Of a stretch of 64,000 nucleotides of DNA, positions 4,136-50,399 are shown piece after piece. The stretch comes from an uncultured Treponema sp. Lineage in GTDB: Bacteria > Spirochaetota > Spirochaetia > Treponematales > Treponemataceae. The first letter of the stretch is position 1, and every line of letters begins with the position of its first letter. Made by a program: the position numbers and the translations under genes. The stretch spans positions 1 through 64,000 of the forward strand of contig NZ_CAMCEC010000004.1 of assembly GCF_945873775.1 (NCBI RefSeq), read 5' to 3'. The notes below the pieces were generated by a model that saw nothing but the letters and a program-made list of their open reading frames with translations, was not told where the DNA came from and ran no database searches.

Positions 4136-4163
4136 GATTGTCGTATCAAGTATGACAATGACA
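4136..4163. repeat. dispersed hairpin-element copy
   Basis: GATTGTCGTA-TCAAG-TATGACAATGACA; reverse complement is TGTCATTGTCATA-CTTGA-TACGACAATC, matching the other copies in the window. Confidence 0.65.
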
Positions 4164-13651: not shown

Positions 13652-13721
13652 AAAATCCCTCTAAGAAAAAAATTATTTTACTAGATTAAGTTTCAAGTTT
13701 TTGTAAAAGTAATTGCTAAAC

Positions 13722-13790
13722 TGTCATTCTCATGCTATGACACGAGAATCTTTGTAAATTTAGATTATCGGGTCAATCCCGATAATGACA
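13722..13790. repeat. composite element: two hairpin copies in inverted orientation
   Basis: TGTCATTCTCATG-CTATGA-CACGAGAATC ... GATTATCGGG-TCAAT-CCCGATAATGACA. Confidence 0.75.
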
Positions 13791-13947
13791 TTTAGAGTTT
13801 ATCAAAACAATGAAAATTTGTATCTGACATAATTATATATCAATTTTTTATTATTTCAAATTTATTTTTTGCTTGAATTTCCGGCTGAATATAACCTTGT
13901 GAAGTTTAGTTTGTTTTATTATATTAGTAAAAATTAATGAGGTTGAT

Positions 13948-39110: not shown

Positions 39111-39274
39111 TTTTTTGTTTTTAGTGGGGCATTTTGACTCACTTTGAATCAACACTTTATGGGCTGTGTCATTTTGATGCAGCCTTATTTGTTTTTAAAG
39201 GCTTTTAAAATCTAAAAAACTGCATTCAAATCAGCTTTTTTACTGTTGAAACGTAAAAAGTTGCTTACCCTTAA

Positions 39275-39400
39275 TTTCGAGTTTTATAATTTAATGTCAT
39301 TATCGGGCTTGACCCGATAATCTATTGAAAATTTTCAACAGATTCCAGTGTCGTAGCACGGGAATGACACTTAAACTACTGTCATTATCAAAACTCGATA
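39275..39400. repeat. nested composite hairpin element
   Basis: Two hairpin copies (39295-39322 and, inverted, 39341-39369) inside outer inverted arms TTTCGAGTTTTATAAT / ATTATCAAAACTCGATA. Confidence 0.72.
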
Positions 39401-39444
39401 TTTGGGCTGTTTATTTTATTTTTTTTCTTGCTTTTTTGTATGAC

Positions 39445-46844: not shown

Positions 46845-46941
46845 GCCTTTTGTCATTATCCAGCTTGACTGGATAATCCCCTGCAATCTTTCTTTTCATT
46901 GTGCATTTCGTTTTTAGGTGATAAAATAGCGCATTATGAAA
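46845..46941 (+). repeat. 97-bp direct repeat, left copy (hairpin plus promoter plus start codon)
   Basis: About 92% identical to 50303-50399 by manual alignment (8 mismatches, no gaps). Confidence 0.85.
46899..46927 (+). promoter_or_regulatory. promoter abutting the start of the SUMF1-domain gene
   Basis: TTGTGC-N17-TAAAAT, 8 nt before ATG 46936. Confidence 0.65.
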
Positions 46942-50199: not shown

Positions 50200-50227
50200 G
50201 ATTCCCTTGTCAAGCAAGGGAATGACA
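50200..50227. repeat. dispersed hairpin-element copy
   Basis: GATTCCCTTG-TCAAG-CAAGGGAATGACA. Confidence 0.75.
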
Positions 50228-50264
50228 AATAACAGTCTATCATTGCCATGCCAGACTAGCTTTT

Positions 50265-50308
50265 TGTCATTGCCGGAGTTGCCCTTTGTCATTGCCTTGC
50301 TTGCCTTT
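50265..50308. repeat. two 22-bp tandem half-copies of the hairpin left arm
   Basis: TGTCATTGCCGGAGTTGCCCTT / TGTCATTGCCTTGCTTGCCTTT, followed in phase by the full hairpin at 50309. Confidence 0.6.
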
Positions 50309-50399
50309 TGTCATTATCTAGCTTGACTAGATAATCCCCTGCAATCTTTCTTTTCATTGTGCATTTCTTTTTAAAGTGGTAGAATGGCGCATTATGAAA
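50303..50399 (+). repeat. 97-bp direct repeat, right copy
   Basis: Matches 46845-46941; hairpin differs by a paired C-G to T-A exchange. Confidence 0.85.
50357..50385 (+). promoter_or_regulatory. promoter abutting the murE start codon
   Basis: TTGTGC-N17-TAGAAT, 8 nt before ATG 50394. Confidence 0.65.

Follow-up and report, generated by a model that had tools for sequence, protein, structure and literature searches.

REP hairpins of the CGTC superfamily in an uncultured Treponema, and their head-to-head pairs as the likely core of a MITE mobilised by an IS982-type transposase

Short hairpins carrying an unpaired CGTC or TGTC tag have been grouped by Di Nocera et al. (2013; PMC3733652) into a superfamily of REPs that covers dRS3 of Neisseria as well as RPE-4 and RPE-6 of Rickettsia, with hosts in many phyla, Spirochaetes being among those listed. 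In the sections of that survey on which we draw, a CGTC REP is defined by the unpaired tag, an 8-9 bp stem that starts with the complementary pairs A-T and T-A, a loop of 4-5 nt (a few hosts have other lengths), a predominance of head-to-head pairs, and a short unpaired 3' tail that reads CCA in most, but not all, cases. The same sections describe these REPs as lacking an associated transposase, and pose the question whether other transposases move them. Non-autonomous DNA transposons (MITEs) derived from IS982 are likewise known, for instance MITECca01 of Cardinium (PMC9769881, in the part considered here).

The hairpins dispersed through the window, the 64-kb stretch of Treponema DNA analysed here, are REPs of this already described kind. 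Eight TGTC-tagged units had been claimed from the letters alone (hereafter the sequence-only reading), and all eight were located, one of them starting at 46851 instead of 46850. Two are single units found by pattern scan, at 4136-4163 (minus strand) and 46851-46878 (plus strand); comparison with related genomes revealed that the former is kept in G099 and is missing together with its surroundings in G160, and that the G099 orthologue of the latter has a mismatched 3' arm. A relaxed scan located the units at 13722-13750 (plus strand, loop CTATGA) and 13763-13790 (minus strand, loop ATTGA). In the composite flagged by the sequence-only reading, a plus-strand unit at 39295-39322 (TGTC tag, stem ATTATCGGG, loop CTTGA; pattern scan and fold) and a minus-strand unit at 39341-39369 (stem ATTCCCGTG with one mismatch, 6-nt loop CTACGA; sequence and relaxed scan) are separated by the spacer TATTGAAAATTTTCAACA (39323-39340), which is palindromic in itself as judged from sequence and fold. 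The remaining two units, at 50200-50227 (minus strand) and 50309-50336 (plus strand), both found by pattern scan, enclose plus-strand tandem half-REPs (50228-50308), recognised from the sequence, that consist of tag, 5' arm and loop without the 3' arm; fewer of these half-REPs are present at the matching place in G160. All five loci lie outside genes according to ORF calling, as had been proposed.

A pattern that fixes tag, loop and tail and leaves the stem unconstrained matches the window seven times (six of the matches are listed units), compared with 1.06 times in dinucleotide shuffles, of which 0 out of 100 reached seven. The whole-genome scan suggested with the initial claim yielded at least 170 strict copies in 2.59 Mb (82 forward and 88 reverse), the reversed-pattern control giving 0, and a relaxed scan of 805 kb found 103 units versus one in the reversed sequence. 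The 196 congeneric (Treponema-type) genomes have between 0 and 250 copies each, with a control near zero. The named records that carry an identical 28-mer are mostly Treponema, and this exact 28-mer is also found in genomes classified under Patescibacteria, Komeilibacteria, Dehalococcoidales and Thiovulum. About 24 viral contigs in IMG/VR (e.g. L265, L278, L294, L312 and L336) possess a REP unit with 5-6 arm positions paired; many of the remaining matches in that scan are unpaired and probably due to chance.

In the units studied here, the TGTC tag is fixed, the first stem pair is A-T in 96 of 98 units and the second T-A in 97 of 98, the loop measures 5 nt in 73 of 103 units and 6 nt in 25, and 22 of 38 neighbouring pairs are arranged head-to-head. 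They thus share with the CGTC REPs, as portrayed in the relevant sections of the survey, the TGTC/CGTC tag, a 9-bp stem opening with AT, the 5-nt loop, the head-to-head pairing of unlike units and the intergenic location (PMC3733652). Unlike the units described there, some have 6-nt loops, and the tail after AATC (an unpaired C, with T as the next base in 73%) mostly brings a T instead of the usual CCA; furthermore, some pairs reside in a MITE of the IS982 type that is flanked by target duplications, and a 55-nt form with a three-way junction exists. A comparable published arrangement is that of the CGTC-1 pairs of H. neapolitanus, which lie in 41-bp palindromes and hence, as here, have an outer inverted repeat around the two REPs; in contrast to the MITE reported below, the sections of the survey considered assign them neither a transposase family nor a target duplication (PMC3733652).

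The inverted pair and the further inverted repeat surrounding it, which the sequence-only reading had placed at 39275-39400, are real, and the full element is a 140-bp MITE (39268-39407). End comparison identified its left terminal inverted repeat, CCCTTAATTTCGAGTTTT (39268-39285, plus strand), which agrees with the NN(N)6T(N)5TT register of IS982, and its right one, GCCCAAATATCGAGTTTT (39390-39407, minus strand), in which this register is off by one base; by flank alignment, the element is bordered by the target-site duplications TGCTTA (39262-39267) and TGTTTA (39408-39413), which match at five of six positions. A 2-kb query around this copy aligns with G160 at 93-94% on either flank, with no match across 39260-39444, and alignment shows the orthologous site to be empty. 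The second MITE of the window (13684-13829), again with an inverted REP pair, is bordered by a left duplication that now reads TTACTA (13678-13683) and a right one, TAATTA (13830-13835); the empty G099 site possesses TAATTA once. A third empty orthologous site, that of C4:70507, was found in G160. The unit of about 140 bp recurs at other places in G000 and G099 with approximately 94% identity, and sampling of the MITE ends in three related genomes provided 12 distinct intact relatives, all 12 of which have 5-6 bp target duplications (six exact 6-bp, two exact 5-bp and four with one mismatch). Most of these duplications read TANNTA or TANTA, and in 30 of 32 MITE copies the left end is preceded by TA. 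Hence, the flagged copy is very probably an inserted MITE, and the proposal of a selfish palindromic (REP/MITE-like) element is borne out in a more specific form, namely as CGTC-superfamily REPs, two of which sit head-to-head inside a MITE of the IS982 type. A search of plasmid and phage records for this MITE found none. The Correia elements of Neisseria are likewise palindromic MITEs with terminal repeats, 100-150 bp in length, and duplicate TA, unlike the 5-6 bp duplicated here. Another nested set consists of REP pairs within a different inverted repeat, TGTTCCAAAAGTATC, at G000 C1:70899-70984, C1:108236-108318 and C2:190470-190552 (L006, L008 and L024); no recognisable target duplication was found at these three loci.

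Head-to-head hairpin pairs with a fixed foot and loop, and with stems that are variable yet paired, have the look of REPINs, in which an inverted hairpin pair is the mobile unit, as here, and whose movement is due to a RAYT (Y1/HUH) transposase, an enzyme that recognises single-stranded hairpin DNA. We regard this explanation as highly improbable for the Treponema family, since its tag is TGTC and not GTAG, the Y1 transposase is missing from the high-copy genomes tested, and 5-6 bp target duplications are seen. To our knowledge, such duplications are not expected of the Y1/HUH enzyme class, and for family A they largely refute a RAYT. The expectation that a RAYT/Y1 gene would track copy number failed as well: PF01797 has no match in the high-copy genomes G000, G001, G005 and G019 and is present in several low-copy ones. 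Low-copy genomes also lack a transposase beside their few copies, the genes neighbouring their REPs having no transposase in common, and no multi-copy transposase was found within 31% of G000. A MITE of the IS630/Tc1-mariner type was rejected in view of the duplications of 5-6 bp, not TA only, and of the lack of DDE_3 in 29 of 30 genomes; likewise, the gene counts of Rpn/PDDEXK_2 nucleases fail to track REP copy number. The sampled 31% contains only one strongly similar gene pair, ATPase-like genes at G000:C2:118435-119799 and C4:100190-101521 that are 93% identical.

The terminal repeats lead to IS982, whose consensus end is AC(N)6T(N)5TT and whose direct repeats measure 2-10 bp (PMC7335449), a range that includes the duplications reported here. 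The ends of the MITE family, (A/C/G)CCYWAAHTTCGAGTTTT, fit this consensus; the end ACCTTAATTTCGAGTTTT matches it, and other copies begin with CC or GC. A decayed IS of 845 bp with the ends GGTCAAAWTTCGAGTTTY was detected in the 96% identical relative G099 (G099:C55; L381:689-1533). It contains two reading frames, the second of which matches the NCBIfam IS982 model (E 1.2e-12) and Pfam PF13612 (E 7.8e-14); a second IS982 remnant is present in the same genome (L383). A REP-MITE of G160 (L389) has an 18-bp end identical to that of the decayed IS, and the likeness between IS and MITE is one of the 18-bp ends (14 to 18 of 18 positions identical), not of internal sequence. No intact IS982 copy was found; remnants were seen only in G099, and none within the 31% of G000 examined. 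Next to one of them, L381:1640-2400 resembles a CRISPR repeat array, as judged from its repeated translation alone.

The fit of the ends, the remnants in G099 and the absence of Y1 and IS630 candidates from the high-copy genomes tested therefore make IS982 a good identification for the MITE family of the window copy, and, judging from sequence comparison, an IS982-type enzyme probably moved the flagged copy. Because IS982-type ends are recognisable in only 10 of 71 REP clusters (about 14%; 805 kb; control 0), the model does not yet account for all REPs, and our confidence that the same route lies behind all of them is low. We consider it likely that the CGTC REP pair sits at the centre of a non-autonomous transposon mobilised in trans by an IS982-type transposase, a reading based on the terminal repeats and target duplications, on the vacant orthologous sites of sister species, and on a decayed IS with matching ends and an IS982 transposase fragment. 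The MITE core of the flagged copy would consist of two unlike REPs in head-to-head arrangement; a DDE transposase of the IS982 type, provided in trans, would bind the 18-bp terminal repeats, cut the target at TANNTA with a stagger of 5-6 bp and insert the element. An intact IS982 relative would have moved the copies in the genome studied. For a subset of CGTC REPs, the question of mobility thereby receives a concrete and testable answer in the form of IS982-type ends, 5-6 bp duplications and empty sites. Like MITECca01, the element is short and non-coding with IS982-family-like ends; unlike it, its core is a CGTC REP pair, REP hairpins not being described inside the Cardinium element in the part of the source drawn on, and the putative parental IS found here is decayed (PMC9769881). 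The REP pair in an IS982-type MITE, the decayed IS982 with similar ends and the 55-nt long form go beyond the literature considered here.

That pairing is kept while the arms vary, as the sequence-only reading held, was confirmed when distinct units of several genomes, the present one included, were compared: at the six variable positions, 88% are Watson-Crick paired, compared with 52% after column shuffling (maximum 57%), a control in which the kinship of the copies is left in. Among orthologous units of sister genomes, six have stem differences, all of them one-sided, and two further ones differ essentially in the loop. On this small sample, the one-sided changes are taken to mean that fixed copies decay freely. 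The suggested target under selection for pairing thus applies, at most, to the family as it spreads and fails for fixed copies, whose orthologues change one arm only; the paired variety across the family would be created or filtered as copies spread. Spreading presumably requires the hairpin structure, in its short or long form; such a requirement would explain the paired arms across families, with fixed copies decaying one arm at a time.

About 90% of the REP units are intergenic, and 27 of 85 lie between convergent genes, which account for 17% of intergenic bases (p = 0.0005). Such a distribution might be produced by cis-acting regulatory or terminator RNA hairpins maintained by host selection, although the convergent-gene enrichment fits a weak terminator effect and mere insertion at harmless sites equally well. 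Against host-maintained RNA hairpins, which we judge very unlikely, speak the gain and loss of copies between genomes that are 93-97% identical and the one-sided stem differences in all six orthologous units. The strand asymmetry that would mark RNA was not significant (36 G.T versus 24 A.C mismatches, p = 0.08), leaving RNA-level selection without clear support, and Rfam gave no match for the hairpins. Within 31% of G000, the genes that have a REP on either side are of the ordinary metabolic kind.

Host replication and recombination (template switching, slippage and gene conversion between hairpins) could also shape most units, with transposition merely seeding them. Chimeric units with mismatched arms, which the genome pattern scan detected, the half-REP arrays, the alternation of long and short forms in one slot, and the roughly 86% of clusters without recognisable ends would all be in keeping with such processes; the clean insertions of family A with target duplications and the near-identical copies at new sites are not, and we consider this account unlikely.

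Roughly one in eight units (14 long versus 103 short forms in 805 kb; none among the eight units of the window) contains TGCGATGTTT-NN-loop-NN-AAACTCGGT, an additional hairpin that separates the inner from the outer 3' arm and yields a three-way junction of approximately 55 nt. All three helices covary: 18 sequences score 0.336 versus 0.133 when shuffled, with 0 of 500 shuffles as high, and 44 distinct sequences from more species score 0.348 versus 0.143 in an alignment that was fitted to the structure. Folding as single-stranded DNA gives the three-way junction as the best structure of the commonest long form; the CTACGA variant alone does not adopt it. Matches occur in 28 of 196 genomes, at least 12 of them full-length and strong, and a search of 392 genomes of the phylum detected the form in only 2 of 167 genera. 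The literature consulted contains no description of it, which does not prove absence. One slot of one MITE holds either the long or the short form, and so do orthologous or transferred loci. It is conceivable, if doubtful, that this junction represents the complete element, that a putative dedicated factor of this bacterial family recognises it as a folded single strand of DNA or RNA, and that the short REPs and the IS982 MITEs serve as secondary vehicles; the branched form provides a sharply defined structure for finding a recognising factor.

A DUF6261 gene beside branched REPs was promising at first and was discarded, as it occurs also without them. The DUF6261 proteins of G018 and G099 (L399:1639-2319 and L148:10365-11045) are 94% identical, the two species looking far more distant elsewhere, and the REP upstream of the gene is long in G018 and short in G099. 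An unrelated dispersed repeat of about 210 bp (L059:6698-6907, i.e. G000:C1:166698-166907) is missing at the orthologous G099 site, where an overlap of about 13 bp is seen; about a dozen copies of it are present in G099 and at least 44 in G160.
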